Shown in pieces: positions 6,779 to 64,000 of a stretch of DNA of 64,000 nucleotides. The notes below the pieces were generated by a model. That model was not told the origin of the DNA. It saw only the letters and a program-made list of their open reading frames with translations, and did not search any database. Made by a program: the position numbers and the translations under genes. This DNA is from Lacinutrix sp. 5H-3-7-4 (GTDB lineage Bacteria > Bacteroidota > Bacteroidia > Flavobacteriales > Flavobacteriaceae): NCBI RefSeq assembly GCF_000211855.2, contig NC_015638.1:1612001-1676000 (forward strand), given 5' to 3'. The first letter of the stretch is position 1; each line of letters starts with the position of its first letter.

Positions 6779-7132
6779 ATGAATCTTATTATAAAACTCC
6801 TATTAAATGCTATAGCAGTATTTGTATTAGCACATGTTTTAAATGGAGTTAATGTAGATGGTTATATATCTGCAATAATTGTAGCAATAGTATTATCTAT
6901 ACTCAACCTATTAGTAAAACCAATTTTGGTAATATTTACCCTACCAATAACAATATTAACATTAGGTCTATTTTTACTAGTAATAAACGCATTATTAATA
7001 TTATTAGCAGATAAACTAATAGATGGGTTTGAAGTAATAAATATATGGTGGGCAATTTTATTTAGCGTTCTATTATCAATATTACAATCGCTATTACATT
7101 CATTTTTAAAAAAGGATAAAAATAAAGCGTAA
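6779..7132 (+). CDS. Phage-holin-family (DUF360-like) small membrane protein
   Basis: A 117-residue integral membrane protein with four hydrophobic helices (about 4-22, 30-50, 56-78 and 85-110) and a short charged KKDKNK tail. The NLLVKPILVIFTLPITILTLGLF segment is typical of the widespread Phage_holin_4_2 family, which is chromosomal and not phage-derived in most bacteria. Function unknown. It ends the pdxJ operon; an inverted repeat at 7166-7200 follows. Confidence 0.8.
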   Translation: MNLIIKLLLNAIAVFVLAHVLNGVNVDGYISAIIVAIVLSILNLLVKPILVIFTLPITILTLGLFLLVINALLILLADKLIDGFEVINIWWAILFSVLLSILQSLLHSFLKKDKNKA

Positions 7133-58729: not shown

Positions 58730-59257
58730 TTATATTGTAAAGTTACCATTGGTTTTATGTTCGCTATTTTCGTAGCGCTCAACGCATTTATTAAGAATCT
58801 CGTAAGCTTCTTTTGCATCTCCCCAACCACCAACATCTACTTTTTTCTTTTCTAAATCTTTATAAACCTGGAAAAAGTGTGTAATTTCTTTAATACGGTG
58901 AGGATTTAAATCATCAATATCATTGTAGCTATTCCAAATAGGATCTGTAACAGGAACACAAATTAATTTCTCGTCAGGACCTTTTTCGTCTGCCATATGA
59001 AAAACACCAATTGGTTTAACTTCTACAACGCACATAGGAAAAGTAGGTTCTGTACCCATTACTAATACATCTAATGGATCTCCATCTAATGCTAATGTTT
59101 CTGGTATAAAACCGTAATCTCCTGGATACATCATTGATGAAAATAACATACGATCGAAACGAATTTTATTTAATTCGAAATCGTATTCATACTTGTTTCT
59201 ACTACCTTTTGGTATTTCTATTAAAACATCAAATGTTAATTTTCCTTCTGGACTCAT
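58730..59257 (-). CDS. ppa: Inorganic pyrophosphatase, family I
   Basis: Hydrolyses diphosphate in the cytoplasm. Metal-binding motif DGDPLDVLVMG, substrate residues in KGSRNKYEYD, MYPGDYGFIPETL and DPIWNSYNDIDDL are conserved; 175 aa is standard. It has a clear promoter and a 70-base leader that begins with a hairpin. Confidence 0.97.
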   Translation of the reverse strand: MSPEGKLTFDVLIEIPKGSRNKYEYDFELNKIRFDRMLFSSMMYPGDYGFIPETLALDGDPLDVLVMGTEPTFPMCVVEVKPIGVFHMADEKGPDEKLICVPVTDPIWNSYNDIDDLNPHRIKEITHFFQVYKDLEKKKVDVGGWGDAKEAYEILNKCVERYENSEHKTNGNFTI

Positions 59258-59309
59258 GAAATATTATTTGTTTATTCCCGAAAATGGGATGCTAATTATT
59301 GTTTTTAAA

Positions 59310-59329
59310 CGAAAAACTAAGGTTTTTCG
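59310..59329 (-). repeat. Hairpin at the 5' end of the ppa leader
   Basis: 8-base arms CGAAAAAC (59310-59317) and GTTTTTCG (59322-59329), 4-base loop, located where transcription from the promoter at 59335-59366 should begin. Confidence 0.5.
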
Positions 59330-59334
59330 GGCAG

Positions 59335-59366
59335 CAAAAATACATATTCATTTGAGTTTTAACAAG
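59335..59366 (-). promoter_or_regulatory. ppa promoter
   Basis: Minus strand: CTTG (59366-59363), 20 bases, TATTTTTG (59342-59335). Full consensus match. Confidence 0.7.
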
Positions 59367-59397
59367 TATTATATAAAATCTTATTATTAAGTTTAAT

Positions 59398-59991
59398 TTA
59401 AAAGTCGAAACCTAATGTAAACTGCCAAACTCTGTTTTTAGGTTTTCCTTCGTCGTAAATATCACCAAGTCCTAAATGGTAGCGAACACCAAGGCTTACA
59501 CCAGAGTTAGTTTTTATACCTGCTCCAAAGTTTACACCATAGTCAAATTTGTTAGGTTCAAATTCTTCTTCATTATCGAACAGGTTAAATTCGCTATCAA
59601 ATTCTTCTTTGTGAGAAATAGCTAAACCAGCTTGTGGACCTGCTTCTAAATAAAAATTTTGTGTTGGATAAATTTTTAATAGTAATGGTACATTTATATA
59701 ATTTACTTTTTGAGTGAAAGTAGAATTATCATTTTTAATTTCGTAGCCTTGTTGAGAATACTGTACTTCTAATTGTATTGCAACAGCATTATTAACAAAT
59801 GATTCGCCATAAAAACCAATAATAAAGCCACTGCGTTGTCCTGTTTCTCCATCGCCATCGAAGCTTACAGAGGCAAGGTTATAGCCACCTTTAATACCTG
59901 CGTGAGATTTGTTTTTAATTTCTTGGTCTTGCGCATTTAATGTTATCGCTGTTATTAATATAAGTGCGAATGATAAGATTTGTTTTTTCAT
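59398..59991 (-). CDS. PorT-like outer-membrane beta-barrel protein
   Basis: A 197-residue exported barrel protein: signal peptide 1-20 (ending LNAQ), then alternating strands (HAGIKGGYNLASVSF, GFIIGFYGESFV, YLEAGPQAGLAIS, GVSLGVRYHLGLGDIY) ending WQFTLGFDF with the C-terminal aromatic typical of outer-membrane proteins. Function unknown. It starts 18 bases after the metalloprotease gene and is probably co-transcribed with it. Confidence 0.85.
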   Translation of the reverse strand: MKKQILSFALILITAITLNAQDQEIKNKSHAGIKGGYNLASVSFDGDGETGQRSGFIIGFYGESFVNNAVAIQLEVQYSQQGYEIKNDNSTFTQKVNYINVPLLLKIYPTQNFYLEAGPQAGLAISHKEEFDSEFNLFDNEEEFEPNKFDYGVNFGAGIKTNSGVSLGVRYHLGLGDIYDEGKPKNRVWQFTLGFDF

Positions 59992-60009
59992 TTTTATTAT
60001 TATTAAATT

Positions 60010-60780
60010 TTATTTTCCTCCGTTTGCCTGCAAGTCTGCAATACATTGAGCATCGAGTTGTGGTACTTGTTCTCCAGAAACCATATCCATTACACCATTA
60101 GCTGTTTCGGTTTTCCAGAACATAAGGCAGTTGGTTTCGTTACAATGTTTTGGGTGGTCTTCATCTTCATGATTTGATTGTAATGGCGCACCTAAATTTG
60201 TTAAGCCAAATATGTGTCCAATTTCATGAAGTGTTACTGTTGTTTCTAATATACTTCTATTTGGTTCAAAGGTTTCATCGCTTAAACCGTGTATGCTTTC
60301 TTCATATATAACAAAGGATGTATTTCTATAAGCGGTACCTAAAACAGAACTGTTTTGAGAGTTACTAGCAGATAGTCCGTCGATATATAACGCCCAAACT
60401 GCCAGCTGATTTTCTGTGTTAAAAATGGTTCTGTTATTGTCTTCAATAGTTCTAATTTCGTTAGTAGTATATGGTGATAAACCTGGAGAGGCAATGCTTC
60501 TTTTTTGTACCGTTATACCATTAGGTTTATAGGTTCTTTCTTCAAAAAAAGAAACTAAATTATCTATAGTTTGTTGTGTAGGTTCAAAACCTTCTACATA
60601 TACTAGTTCTATAATTAGACTAGTAAATTGCTCATCTGAAAGTAGGTCGTTAGATGAGGTGCCAACTGTTTGCAGGTGATATTCTACAGTGTTTTTGGTA
60701 ACATTATTTTCGTCGTCTTTAGAACATGAAAAACTAATAAGAGATAATAAAATAATAAATAAATAGGTTTGCTTTTTCAT
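60010..60780 (-). CDS. Archaemetzincin-like lipoprotein metalloprotease
   Basis: A 256-residue lipoprotein (lipid Cys19 in LISFSCSKDD). Zinc site HEIGHIFGLTN near residue 190 followed by HCNETNCLMF, i.e. C-x4-C-x-M, the archaemetzincin arrangement, although the third zinc ligand is Asn-displaced (HExxHxxGLxN). Likely an active or partly active surface peptidase; substrate unknown. Pairs with the barrel gene downstream. Confidence 0.82.
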   Translation of the reverse strand: MKKQTYLFIILLSLISFSCSKDDENNVTKNTVEYHLQTVGTSSNDLLSDEQFTSLIIELVYVEGFEPTQQTIDNLVSFFEERTYKPNGITVQKRSIASPGLSPYTTNEIRTIEDNNRTIFNTENQLAVWALYIDGLSASNSQNSSVLGTAYRNTSFVIYEESIHGLSDETFEPNRSILETTVTLHEIGHIFGLTNLGAPLQSNHEDEDHPKHCNETNCLMFWKTETANGVMDMVSGEQVPQLDAQCIADLQANGGK

Positions 60781-60799
60781 ATATAAATATACTTTTATA

Positions 60800-60832
60800 A
60801 AAGCTGCTATTTAAGTTTTAAATAGCAGCTTT
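60800..60832 (-). terminator. Long-stem hairpin after the repeat lipoprotein gene
   Basis: 15-base perfect arms AAAGCTGCTATTTAA (60800-60814) and its complement (60818-60832), 3-base loop, T-rich on the minus-strand side. Lies between the repeat lipoprotein and the metalloprotease genes, so the two may be separate transcripts. Confidence 0.7.
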
Positions 60833-60890
60833 ATTTAACAATCATCTTATTACCTACGATAAATTTGGGTTAATAGGTTTTGTTTAGGGA

Positions 60891-61949
60891 TTAAATTTGT
60901 TCTAAAACTAAGGTTACGGCTGCATTAGTTGTACTTTGTAAAGATATAGTTGTATTGTTAAAACTTGTTACTTCCCAGTTTTGGTTAAGTAAACTAAAGC
61001 TAGCATTACTTGTAAAATTTAAGTTTAAAAACACTTGAGTTTGTGAAGTTACTTGGTATGTGCCTTGTATATCTTGAACGGTTGTGTTAACTGTGTTTTC
61101 TGCTACTAGAGATAAATCGTTAGCAAAATCAATTGTATACTCTACATAATCGTTTGCGGTATCTATTCCAGAGTTAATAAAAGTTTCTACTTGAAAAATA
61201 CCATCTACTAATATTTCTTCTAAGTTTTCGGCATTTTCTTCTGCTTCTTCAATAGAATCTTCTTCATCAATACAGTCTTCTACGCTTGATTGTAAATCTG
61301 CATCACTAGATATTGTAATACTACTTCCTCCAGCACCAGTAACAGTAATTGGGTAGTTTACAGAAAATAACTCGTCTTCACCAAAATTATTAATGTAGTT
61401 AAAAAGTTGTTCCTCGCTTTCTATAACAACACTTCCTGTTTGGTCTAAATTTAAATTATAGGTTAAAATAGTAATAGGGAAATTTATATCTACACAAGTT
61501 AGTGCGTTTTGAGCTGTAGCTTCTGCTTCTTCACACGCATCTATAATAGCATCGTATTCAGCTTGGTTTGTTACTACTACTTCGGTGTAATTACTTAAAG
61601 CAATAGTAAACGGAAACTGTAATACAACTGTATCGTCGTCTGTATTAAATTCTCCAAGAATATTTAGTACTTGCTGGTAATCTGCTTGGCTAATTATAGT
61701 AATTTCGGTATTGTTTACTGTAGCAGTTACAGGTAATAAAATAGAAGAGCATGAAACGCCATCTAAAAAATCATCAAAAGAACCATCATACATCGATGAG
61801 CGTTCTAAATTGTTTGCTGTTTGAGAATTTGCTGCGTTTGTATTAGTGTTTGGGTTTTCGCCTGTTTCATTATCTATTTCATCTTGACAAGATGTTAAGG
61901 TTAATAAAGCGGTTAAAAATACTGTTGTAATTAGTTTTAAATTTTTCAT
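60891..61949 (-). CDS. Acidic lipoprotein with internal repeats
   Basis: A 352-residue lipoprotein (lipid Cys21 in LTLTSC). After an Asn/Thr linker there are four related segments of about 35-40 residues, each Pro-x-Thr followed by a strand and a helix: LLPVTATVNNTEITIISQADY, QFPFTIALSNYTEVVVTNQAEY, NFPITILTYNLNLDQTGSVVI..SEEQL and NYPITVTGAGGSSITISSDADL. Paired Cys close each double unit (VSC, DAC, LTC, EDC). A Glu-rich spacer and a beta-rich C-terminal domain follow. Family not recognised. Upstream lies copy A of the ECF-type promoter motif, which places it in the regulon of the sigma factor at 62246. Confidence 0.8.
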   Translation of the reverse strand: MKNLKLITTVFLTALLTLTSCQDEIDNETGENPNTNTNAANSQTANNLERSSMYDGSFDDFLDGVSCSSILLPVTATVNNTEITIISQADYQQVLNILGEFNTDDDTVVLQFPFTIALSNYTEVVVTNQAEYDAIIDACEEAEATAQNALTCVDINFPITILTYNLNLDQTGSVVIESEEQLFNYINNFGEDELFSVNYPITVTGAGGSSITISSDADLQSSVEDCIDEEDSIEEAEENAENLEEILVDGIFQVETFINSGIDTANDYVEYTIDFANDLSLVAENTVNTTVQDIQGTYQVTSQTQVFLNLNFTSNASFSLLNQNWEVTSFNNTTISLQSTTNAAVTLVLEQI

Positions 61950-62005
61950 TGTTTTTAGTTTAAATTTTTCTTTTTTCTTTTTAGCGATTTTCGCCCATCT
62001 ATAAG

Positions 62006-62034
62006 TAAGACAATTGTAAATTTATTTACCCTAC
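62006..62034 (-). promoter_or_regulatory. ECF-type promoter motif, copy A
   Basis: Minus strand: GTAGGGTAAAT (62034-62024), 11 bases, TGTCTTA (62012-62006); 57 bases ahead of the repeat-lipoprotein start codon. Confidence 0.7.
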
Positions 62035-62036
62035 TT

Positions 62037-62138
62037 TTAATTTATTTGATTTATTAAAATAATAGCATAGCCTAATAAAAAGACTAATATAAATGCTAAA
62101 ATAATTTCTATGGCTTCTATAATTTTAATTGGTATCAT
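62037..62138 (-). CDS. 33-aa single-helix membrane peptide
   Basis: ATG at 62138 to TAA at 62037: begins MIPIKIIEAIEIILAF and continues with hydrophobic residues to NQIN, a single predicted membrane helix (about 11-29). It starts 27 bases after copy B of the ECF-type motif on the same strand and stops 3 bases before copy A, so it fits tightly between two promoters. No homology known to me; it may be chance, but position supports a gene. Confidence 0.45.
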   Translation of the reverse strand: MIPIKIIEAIEIILAFILVFLLGYAIILINQIN

Positions 62139-62164
62139 CGTCAATGGTTTTAATGTTATAATAG

Positions 62165-62193
62165 TTAGACAATGAGAAATTGTTTTACCCTAC
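62165..62193 (-). promoter_or_regulatory. ECF-type promoter motif, copy B
   Basis: Minus strand: GTAGGGTAAAA (62193-62183), 11 bases, TGTCTAA (62171-62165); ahead of the small peptide and facing away from the sigma gene. Confidence 0.65.
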
Positions 62194-62245
62194 TTTTAAG
62201 ATCACTTTTTTTTTAACTAACTTGTTTTTACTTTATTTGCAAGAG

Positions 62246-62758
62246 ATGAAGGAACAAAAAAAACTTTGCGAAGAAACTTACTTTAATAGCTTTTATTTAA
62301 AGCATGTCCAGCATGCAAGTAACTTTGCGTATTATAAATGTGGAGATAAGGATAATGCGTTAGATCTTGTACAAGATGCTTTTTCTAAAATCTGGGAGAA
62401 TTGTTCTAAAATTGATTTTAGTAAAGCTAAAAGCTATTTATTTACTACAGTTAATAATCTTTTTCTAAATAAAATAAAACATGAAAAGGTTGTTATGGAA
62501 TATGCAAAAGCAGCGCCTTATATAGATGTTAATAATGAAAGCCCAGAATATATTTTAGAAGAAGAACAGTTTAAAAAAAAATTACAGCACGCCATTGCCT
62601 TGTTAACAGATAAACAGCGAGAAGTTTTTTTATTAAACAGAATTGAAGGAAAAAAATATAGAGAAATAGCCGAAATACTAGGTGTTTCTCAAAAAGCTGT
62701 AGAAAAACGAATGTCTCTAGCATTAACTGTTCTTAGAGAAAAAATAGAAATTTTATAA
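62246..62758 (+). CDS. FecI-type ECF RNA polymerase sigma factor
   Basis: A 170-residue ECF sigma factor: region 2 DKDNALDLVQDAFSKIWENC, AKSYLFTTVNNLFLNKIK, region 4 LTDKQREVFLLNRIEGKKYREIAEILGVSQKAVEKRMSLAL. I start at ATG 62246 (MKEQKKLCEE); the frame runs 66 bases further upstream but through the copy B motif. FecR and a TonB receptor follow, so it is the regulator of a cell-surface signalling unit. Confidence 0.93.
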   Translation: MKEQKKLCEETYFNSFYLKHVQHASNFAYYKCGDKDNALDLVQDAFSKIWENCSKIDFSKAKSYLFTTVNNLFLNKIKHEKVVMEYAKAAPYIDVNNESPEYILEEEQFKKKLQHAIALLTDKQREVFLLNRIEGKKYREIAEILGVSQKAVEKRMSLALTVLREKIEIL

Positions 62759-62763
62759 AAAAA

Positions 62764-62792
62764 GTAGGGTAAATATAAAATTAACTGTCTTA
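62764..62792 (+). promoter_or_regulatory. ECF-type promoter motif, copy C
   Basis: GTAGGGTAAAT (62764-62774), 11 bases, TGTCTTA (62786-62792), 19 bases before the fecR-like ATG, just behind the sigma gene stop. Confidence 0.75.
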
Positions 62793-62811
62793 GAGGTGAA
62801 GCACTTATAAA

Positions 62812-63717
62812 ATGAAAGATGAAAATAAAATACTAAAATGGTTAAATAATGAGCTTTCTCATGAAGAAATTGACGATTTAAAAAAATCAGGAAATTTTAA
62901 AGATTTAGAGAAAATAGCACATTACTCAACACAACTAGAAGCTCCAAAAGTAGATGCAGAAGCTGCATTACATGCTTTTCGATTAAAGCAAAAGCAAAAA
63001 CCAAAAGTTCGCACTTTAAACTTTAGACCTTATTTAAAATATGCTGCTATTTTAGTTATTATGCTTAGTGTGGCTTTTTTAACTTTTTTTAATAACAATA
63101 AAAGTTATAATACTACCATTGCAGAAACCGAAACCATTACATTGCCAGATAACTCTCAAGTAATGCTTAGTGCAGTTTCTAGCCTTAGTTACAATAATAA
63201 AAAATGGAAAAACGATAGGGATTTAGAACTTGATGGTGAAGCCTTTTTTAAAGTAAGTAAAGGAAAGAAGTTTACTGTAAAAACAAGCGTTGGAGAGATA
63301 CAAGTTTTAGGAACCCAATTTAATGTAAAAGAACGCGATAACTATTTTGAAGTACAATGTTACGAAGGTTTGGTAGCAGTTACTTACAATAAAAAAACTG
63401 TAAAGTTATCTAAAGGAAAATCGTTTAGAGTAGTAGATAACACAATAGAGTTAGTAGACGATTTTTCAAGTGCACAACCTTCTTGGTTAAGCCAAGAGTC
63501 AACCTTCGATAAAGTTCCACTAAAACATGTAATAGCAGATTTAGAGAATTATTACAACATTAAAGTAGAAACAAAAGCAATTGATATCGAACAGCTTTTT
63601 ACAGGAACTTTCACACACAATAATAAAAATATCGCACTACAAACTATAACAATACCTTTAAAATTAAGTTATAAAATTCAAGGCGATACCGTTACTTTCT
63701 ATAAATATGAAAATTAA
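62812..63717 (+). CDS. FecR-family anti-sigma factor with DUF4974
   Basis: A 301-residue inner-membrane regulator: short cytoplasmic N-terminus (ILKWLNNELSHEEIDDLK), one helix at about 72-92, periplasmic FecR domain (ITLPDNSQVMLSAVSSLSYN, LDGEAFFKVSKGKKFTVKT, VLGTQFNVKERDNYFEVQCYEG) and a C-terminal DUF4974 part (TFDKVPLKHVIADLENYYNIKV). It would hold the adjacent sigma factor and receive the signal from the receptor encoded next, whose ATG overlaps its end by 11 bases. Confidence 0.94.
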   Translation: MKDENKILKWLNNELSHEEIDDLKKSGNFKDLEKIAHYSTQLEAPKVDAEAALHAFRLKQKQKPKVRTLNFRPYLKYAAILVIMLSVAFLTFFNNNKSYNTTIAETETITLPDNSQVMLSAVSSLSYNNKKWKNDRDLELDGEAFFKVSKGKKFTVKTSVGEIQVLGTQFNVKERDNYFEVQCYEGLVAVTYNKKTVKLSKGKSFRVVDNTIELVDDFSSAQPSWLSQESTFDKVPLKHVIADLENYYNIKVETKAIDIEQLFTGTFTHNNKNIALQTITIPLKLSYKIQGDTVTFYKYEN

Positions 63718-64000
63718 AAACAGGATTGTATTTTTTTTTATTTGTCTAACCACTATTTGTTTTAGCCAGCAAGAAAATCAAGATATTTCATTAGCGAAAT
63801 TTTTAGAAATAACACAAGAAAAATATAATGTCAAATTCTCTTATGCTTTTGAAGATGTTTCTAATATTACCATAAAAACTCCAAAAAACAATTTAAGTTT
63901 AGCAGATACACTAAACTATTTAAATGCTAACACGTTATTAAATTTCAAGACTTTAGATGACCGTTATATTACCGTATCTGTATTAGAAAAAAACATTACT
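63707..64000 (+). CDS. TonB-dependent receptor with STN signalling domain (cut by window edge)
   Basis: 98 codons are visible and the frame is open at the edge. Signal peptide 1-20 (ending CFSQ), then a secretin/TonB short N-terminal (STN) domain: SLAKFLEITQEKYNVKFSYAFEDV, NLSLADTLNYLNANTLLNFKTLDDRYITV. The STN domain is what contacts FecR in surface signalling, and the gene order sigma-FecR-STN receptor is classical. The barrel itself lies beyond 64000; that it is a receptor is inferred from order and domain. Confidence 0.85.
   Translation, partial: MKIKNRIVFFFICLTTICFSQQENQDISLAKFLEITQEKYNVKFSYAFEDVSNITIKTPKNNLSLADTLNYLNANTLLNFKTLDDRYITVSVLEKNIT

Follow-up and report, generated by a model that had tools for sequence, protein, structure and literature searches.

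Within the window, by which we mean the whole 64,000-nucleotide stretch of Lacinutrix sp. 5H-3-7-4 analysed here, an ECF sigma factor, a FecR-type regulator, a TonB-dependent receptor and a divergently encoded lipoprotein very probably form a cell-surface-signalling circuit, in which the sigma factor would read three promoters (P1, P2 and P3) of the form GTAGGG-N16-TGTC. The case is built from sequence comparison, and draws on the motif, its spacing, placement and conservation, its tracking of the sigma factor, the protein domains and a variant of the -10 box in a paralogous circuit. Signalling by FecI, FecR and a receptor is well established, and ECF/anti-sigma loci are described as common in Bacteroidetes, in the parts of the reports considered (PMC9249621, PMC11637429, PMC3878776). 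New here are the definition of the promoter, a partner lipoprotein of no named family, and a co-switch of promoter and sigma factor that occurs in nature and can be tested. Bacteroidetes have many ECF sigma factors, and here the comparison of genomes is enough to yield a sharply defined promoter, its fixed spacer, local and remote targets, and a promoter variant matched by a variant of the sigma factor. The uncharacterised proteins that make up the regulon, and the way in which ECF sigma factors of this phylum read the -10 box, thereby become open to direct test.

The promoter motif

ECF promoters consist of a -35/-10 pair held at a fixed spacer of 16-17. The initial annotation had described three exactly spaced copies of a bipartite motif, GTAGGGTAAAW-N11-TGTCTWA, each facing a gene and each with different intervening bases. 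All three were found where it placed them, on the same strands and with zero mismatches, and their spacers and flanks do differ; its gaps to the start codons, 57 and 27 bases, are corrected here to 56 nt for the lipoprotein, whose ATG is at 61949, and to 26 nt for the peptide, whose ATG is at 62138. P1 (62006..62034, minus strand) is the putative proximal promoter of the lipoprotein gene, and P2 (62165..62193, minus strand), in tandem and co-directional with it, is the putative distal promoter, lying upstream of a small membrane peptide and then of the lipoprotein. P3 (62764..62792, plus strand; GTAGGG-N16-TGTCTTA) begins 5 nt past the stop codon of the sigma gene and precedes fecR and the receptor. 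The three sites thus have the make-up of ECF-type promoters: a -35/-10 pair at a fixed spacer, oriented towards target genes that include the sigma factor's own locus.

The exact motif occurs three times in the 3.30 Mb genome (one contig), all at the sigma locus, in the predicted intergenic places and directed towards the genes, with no match to the reversed control pattern; the shorter core GTAGGG-N16-TGTC-NN-A returns the same three matches alone (control 0). With up to three mismatches allowed, the window yields four matches, a count attained in 1 of 100 shuffles (expectation 0.52), the fourth (6916-6944) lying within a 117-aa reading frame and differing from the motif in its -10 part only. 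The genome yields 16 such matches, of which 13 are additional to the exact three, and the control yields 12; the weak genome matches, with two or three mismatches, are thus at noise level. The motif scan of the genome placed no GTAGGG-type promoter upstream of the sigma gene on its own strand, so the sigma factor would have to be transcribed from another promoter, not of the GTAGGG type. Scans for sigma-70 promoters and terminators gave chance level only, and no Rfam family reached its gathering score in 59000-64000.

The sigma factor, FecR and the receptor

The sigma gene (62246..62758, plus strand) encodes 170 aa with both sigma regions 2 and 4 (Pfam Sigma70_r2, 41.2 bits, cut-off 24; Sigma70_r4_2, 60.3 bits, cut-off 25.7). 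It matches the general sigma70-ECF model (85.5 bits, cut-off 42.9) and falls just below the curated cut-off of the NCBIfam model Sig70_bacteroi1 (TIGR02985; 121.3 bits, cut-off 126.4). The FecR-type anti-sigma/sigma regulator (62812..63717, plus strand; 301 aa) carries the Pfam domains FecR (69.9 bits, cut-off 24) and FecR_C (37.3 bits, cut-off 24.4). The start of the TonB-dependent receptor lies in the window (63707..64000, plus strand); the complete protein, taken from the full ORF of locus L017, has 845 aa and ends about 2.2 kb past the window. Its layout is a signalling domain, a carboxypeptidase-regulatory-like domain (CarbopepD_reg_2, above cut-off) and a plug (26.7 bits, cut-off 23.9).

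The N-terminal domain of the receptor is predicted to fold like the signalling domain of FecA. In the predicted structure of its first 98 aa (mean pLDDT 83), the best Foldseek match is the FecA signalling domain 1zzv (prob 1.00, E 2.4e-3), with further matches to the signalling domains of FoxA, PupA and FpvA; no match reached E ≤ 0.001. The Pfam STN model matches nothing in this genome, so that the earlier label of an 'STN receptor' stands for the predicted fold and not for the Pfam family. Together, the plug and the predicted N-domain fold identify a receptor with an N-terminal signalling domain, of the kind used in FecI/FecR/FecA-type cell-surface signalling. A SusCD nutrient-uptake locus is not indicated: the receptor scores 52.0 bits against an OMP_RagA_SusC cut-off of 368, and the lipoprotein matches no Pfam or NCBIfam model.

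Conservation at related loci

Related loci were gathered by a sigma search, the best 80 of 233 candidates being taken (sigma identity 57-86%), mostly from named flavobacterial genomes and MAGs. Two of them, L096 and L097, were rejected as orthologues as they group with paralogues on the sigma tree; both remain in the totals of 80 or 81 loci, the orthologues numbering 78 plus the window's own, and relatedness among genomes and loci inflates all the counts given here. The initial annotation had proposed conservation at orthologous loci as a check, and the same boxes with the same spacer do recur there before fecR and before the divergent lipoprotein gene. With one change allowed per half, the motif was found at 78 of 80 loci. 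GTAGGG and TGTC are separated by exactly 16 bases in 148 matches across the 80 loci, against at most one match at each spacer of 10-15 and 17-22.

The exact core GTAGGG-N16-TGTC stands before fecR at 63 of the 79 loci that could be tested and, on the lipoprotein side, at 51 of 77; it is absent from the remaining 16 and 26 regions, respectively, most of which carry TGTT, an altered start of the -35 box (ATAGGG, CTAGGG or GTGGGG) or TTTTC. A pattern with up to one change in GTAGGG, followed by N16-TGTYTWA, is present at 65/79 on the fecR side and 65/77 on the lipoprotein side (reversed control 0), and the relaxed form NTAGGR-N16-TGYY precedes fecR and/or the lipoprotein at 81 of 81 loci, the window's included, and at all 20 paralogue loci. 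Three loci (L047, L073 and L078) gave no site on the lipoprotein side in the search with one change per half.

Loci with the C-type -10 box were re-read by picking sites with one box at a time, a procedure that avoids forcing both boxes. Where GTAGGG alone was used, TGTC followed at exactly spacer 16 in 63 of 63 fecR-side and 52 of 58 lipoprotein-side sites; where TGTCTWA alone was used, GTAGGG was present in 60 of 64 and 52 of 61, respectively. The information in the box not used for picking was 1.7 bits per base for -10 and 2.1-2.2 for -35, far above the spacer (0.4-0.5) and the upstream flank (0.3-0.4), so that conservation covers the boxes but not what surrounds them. The three sites of the window are near-identical 29-mers inside 800 bases, as might be expected of functionless copies of a short repeat spread by local duplication; differing spacers and flanks, information confined to the boxes when these are picked singly, and retention of the motif across genera, in trans and at exact spacing make that origin extremely improbable.

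The end of the -10 box lies 15-21 nt ahead of the start codon in all 68 fecR-side (plus-strand) sites with a near start codon, which leaves little room for another core promoter. This placement bears on whether the boxes are instead the operator of a DNA-binding activator, for which conserved bipartite upstream sites are typical too. An operator is nevertheless highly unlikely: the two boxes are unlike each other and non-palindromic, their spacer is fixed at 16 as for ECF -35/-10 pairs, and the -10 letter changes together with the sigma factor (see below). In a more distant locus of like design, L145, with a sigma factor 48% and a FecR 37% identical to those of the window, GTAGGGT..TGTCTTA precedes fecR and also a divergent 446-aa lipoprotein gene.

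The motif and the sigma factor across the family

A near-strict form of the motif, GTAGGGWAAW-N12-TGTCTWA, was used to scan 149 genomes of the family and gave 40 matches in 16 of them, against one for the control. Orthologues of the sigma factor, defined by E ≤ 1.1e-70 (the next best value being 5.2e-59), are present in 15 of the 149. The pattern occurs in 14 of these 15 genomes, compared with two of the 134 without an orthologue (Fisher p 1e-16, a value that ignores relatedness); in the remaining orthologue genome, G125, close variants stand where the sites would be expected. Twenty-nine of the 40 matches share a contig with the orthologue and are no more than 10 kb away from it; the other 11 include five on other contigs of a single fragmented genome, G124. 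One match each was reported in G019 and G045, genomes without an orthologue, and the one match in G008 adjoins a paralogous sigma factor.

Sigma factors of this kind are far commoner than the orthologue itself, for at E ≤ 1e-45 they are found in 95 of the 149 genomes, and each of the 15 orthologue genomes has at least one more. By these sequence counts, the presence of the motif follows this sigma factor and not its commoner paralogues.

Paralogous circuits and the -10 letter

Twenty paralogue loci, chosen by hand, were fetched for comparison. The lipoprotein, FecR and receptor families are all present at every one, and KTAGGR-N16-TGTT precedes both fecR and the lipoprotein in 20/20; the tighter form GTAGGR-N16-TGTTNNA is found at both genes in 14. 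TGTC itself was seen before fecR in none of the 20 and before the lipoprotein in one. Homologues of the lipoprotein occur in 97 of the 149 genomes, many adjoining a sigma factor of this kind.

The window's own genome has one paralogous circuit, at 422 kb. The type B pattern KTAGGRNTTT-N12-TGTTWTA has three matches in this genome, two of them at the paralogous locus (control 0). As judged from sequence, two circuits of like design thus coexist in one genome, each with its own type of promoter; the two types differ in the letters past the -35 core (GGGTAA vs GGAATT) and in the -10 box (TGTC vs TGTT). The third type B site (L169; 1594645-1594673 of the genome, plus strand) stands 121 nt before the gene for a 459-aa secreted protein, CUB-like by eye, a possible trans target of the paralogous sigma factor.

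Each locus was assigned a -10 type by its majority letter and set on a tree of 101 sigma factors, of which 68 are C-type, 32 T-type and one mixed. The letter requires three changes on this tree, against a mean of 28.4 for shuffled labels. One T-type group, a Polaribacter-rich clade, is nested among the C-types, and the -10 letter has therefore changed at least twice; within that clade, four loci (L059, L087, L093 and L094) retain one TGTC promoter. Residue 68 of the sigma factor is T, S or C in 68 of 68 C-type proteins. All 11 proteins of the nested clade (mixed row included) have V, I or L there, as do 7 of 7 in group B2 and 9 of 15 in group B1, the other six of B1 having T. Residue 47 changes together with it. 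Residue 68 as a reader of the -10 letter is thus a lead from sequence, not proof.

These data also bear on whether the three promoters are read by another ECF factor, by the paralogous sigma factor, or by both paralogues with cross-talk. A first look at the genome gave 32 candidate sigma-like stretches, with a single further match at E ≤ 1e-45; the promoter of the paralogous circuit is related and has an equal spacer; and the G008 match lies next to a paralogous sigma gene. Such a reader is nonetheless very unlikely, as the motif follows this sigma factor and not the far commoner paralogues, the -10 letter follows the sigma tree, and the window's own genome keeps the two types apart (type A 3/3 at locus A, type B 2/3 at locus B). 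With the sigma factor encoded at 62246 as the preferred reader, a broader joint interpretation may tentatively be offered, although we give it well under an even chance: that the family contains insulated sigma-promoter pairs, set apart by the letters after the -35 core and by the -10 letter, with residue 68 helping in the distinction and the lipoprotein forming a new class of substrate-binding partner for a TonB receptor.

The lipoprotein, the peptide and the leader

The divergent lipoprotein gene (60891..61949, minus strand) encodes 352 aa, and its family is present in 78 of 81 loci (window's included) as well as in the paralogue loci. Searches of Pfam and NCBIfam returned no family and no SusD match, with sub-threshold noise at E 0.06 only. 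In the predicted structure (mean pLDDT 84), there are four beta-beta-beta-alpha repeats, all containing a proline conserved without exception across 53 sequences, as well as a C-terminal domain rich in beta strands. Structural comparison gave weak matches, the best being to an uncharacterised protein (E 1.1e-3) and to a lipocalin-like protein (E 3.1e-3); with the placement of the matches judged from lengths and strands, the C-terminal domain of the model is probably lipocalin-like. The QDE after the lipid-bearing cysteine resembles the surface-export signal of Bacteroidetes lipoproteins, and the protein would lie on the cell surface. Its most likely role, to which we give about an even chance, would be that of a surface partner capturing substrate for the receptor. 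At five loci (L020, L021, L025, L029 and L150) the lipoprotein gene is present twice in tandem, and each copy has a promoter or a pair of promoters to itself.

Two further genes follow on the minus strand. The first (60010..60780) encodes a lipoprotein with a zinc-protease-like motif, HEIGH, recognized by eye, and an archaemetzincin-like match far below cut-off (20 of 145 bits); the second (59398..59991) encodes an outer-membrane beta-barrel protein (Pfam OMP_b-brl_2). Their families occur in 72 and 65 of 81 loci, respectively, some of which are cut by contig ends. From their sequence context they are neighbours only, and candidate members of the regulon. Potempins inhibit proteases, and inhibition of the neighbouring protease by the lipocalin-like end was considered and rejected, the fold match to potempin E being weak (best E 0.012). 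A 15-base inverted repeat (60800-60832), seen by eye, lies between the lipoprotein and protease genes.

Between P2 and P1 lies an ORF for a hydrophobic peptide of 33 aa (62037..62138, minus strand), which has counterparts in relatives. Tandem P2-P1 pairs number 30 in the 89 loci examined. Of the 19 intervals that measure 131-169 nt, 17 contain an ORF encoding 30-42 aa, and the 11 shorter ones (64-82 nt) contain no such ORF, giving 17 of 30 overall. Values of pN/pS are 0.19-0.66 in the 10 pairs that have equal length and exceed 45% identity. Among the 17 peptides, no fewer than two (L026 and L027) do not look membrane-spanning. A role for the peptide in the circuit is putative.

The predicted leader of the lipoprotein mRNA has a short hairpin near its start (61983..61995, minus strand). 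Of the lipoprotein leaders, 45 of 66 fold with z < -1; the corresponding counts are 3 of 78 for fecR and 4 of 12 for a 151-aa protein family described below. The stems vary in sequence at a similar position (for example GCGA/TCGC, GCAC/GTGC and ACGA/TCGT), loop lengths differ in relatives and the 5' arm slides in the alignment; nine lipoprotein leaders from the Polaribacter-rich clade lack any fold. The hairpin is perhaps an mRNA stabiliser.

The proposed circuit and known systems

In the proposed circuit, a ligand at the TonB-dependent receptor would cause its N-terminal signalling domain to pass a signal to the membrane protein FecR, which would free or activate the ECF sigma factor. RNA polymerase carrying that factor would then read P3, giving more FecR and receptor as feedback, and the tandem P2 and P1, giving more surface lipoprotein, while the small membrane peptide would be made from P2 only. 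The initial annotation had proposed that the sigma factor reads all three promoters and so links the receptor to the lipoprotein and the peptide; the genome scan, the related loci and the tracking of the sigma factor by the motif lend this support. Its picture of a three-promoter regulon holds for the promoters and is to be amended for the targets. Because P2 and P1 are tandem and co-directional, and a P2 transcript could run into the lipoprotein gene, they are probably tandem promoters of one unit, making two target units rather than three; relatives add targets in trans, and the own genome adds a paralogous variant circuit.

The circuit was set beside parts of published accounts. In the Escherichia coli Fec system, fecIR is under sigma-70 control, and the fecA promoter is the only one recognized by FecI (PMC9249621). 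The locus described here is like it in having an ECF sigma factor, a FecR-type regulator, a TonB receptor with an N-terminal signalling domain and a predicted sigma-dependent receptor promoter. Unlike Fec, fecR and the receptor here share an ECF-type promoter with the sigma gene outside it, and a divergent lipoprotein unit and, in relatives, trans targets are added. In Pseudomonas FoxI/FoxR/FoxA, the signalling domain of the receptor acts on the C-terminal STN-like domain of the anti-sigma factor (PMC11637429). A likeness is seen here in the FecR_C model, which matches FecR and, below cut-off, the N-domain of the receptor; known siderophore ligands are a feature of the Pseudomonas system.

In Bacteroides, ECF sigma/anti-sigma pairs are coupled with TonB receptors (SusC-like porins), and a 2013 regulon study described ECF promoter prediction as challenging without transcript starts (PMC3878776). 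Unlike those SusC-like loci, the present one has, in place of a SusD match, a lipoprotein of no named family. A non-canonical -30/-10 promoter of B. thetaiotaomicron with TGTT at about -10 is a proposed ECF target (PMC12596196); its TGTT equals the -10 letters of the paralogous circuit, a comparison that covers the -10 half only. For SM6 of F. psychrophilum, an ECF-type promoter with CGT at -10 was derived from mapped 5' ends and assigned to T9SS genes (PMC9723704). It differs from the promoter of the window in its -10 core and, in the parts of the report considered, in the genes named, and neither 'gtagg' nor 'tgtct' occurs in the main text that was compared, the motif logo being a figure. 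Among the literature matches listed, with subscription journals largely outside their scope, no report concerned a GTAGGG-N16-TGTC promoter or this lipoprotein family.

Putative distant targets in relatives

A family of secreted proteins of about 151 aa is encoded at 13 of the 80 loci, each time with the motif upstream (up to one change per half), and in 15 of the 149 genomes. Ten of those genomes possess the sigma orthologue as well, and in every one of them a site of the TGTC type begins 58-80 nt upstream of the gene; nine of the ten sites fit the search pattern, and that of G125 has two changes in the -35 box. The gene can lie far from the sigma gene on the same contig, at about 0.8 Mb in G131 and about 0.4 Mb in G024. 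Among genomes without an orthologue, G056, whose fetched sigma locus (L120) is TGTT-type, has GTAGGG-N16-TGTT before its 151-aa gene, and G002 has a TGTC site; three genomes with weaker homologues (G120, G086 and G030) gave no upstream site. The window's own genome has no match to the family at E ≤ 0.001, nor at the E of 1e-8 applied to the 149 genomes, and the family is for this reason outside the regulon of this window. At two further loci, L149 and L151, the motif stands far from the sigma gene before genes for proteins of 149 and 141 aa with a hydrophobic start, which are 27% identical to each other (E 5e-7) and are possible further trans targets.
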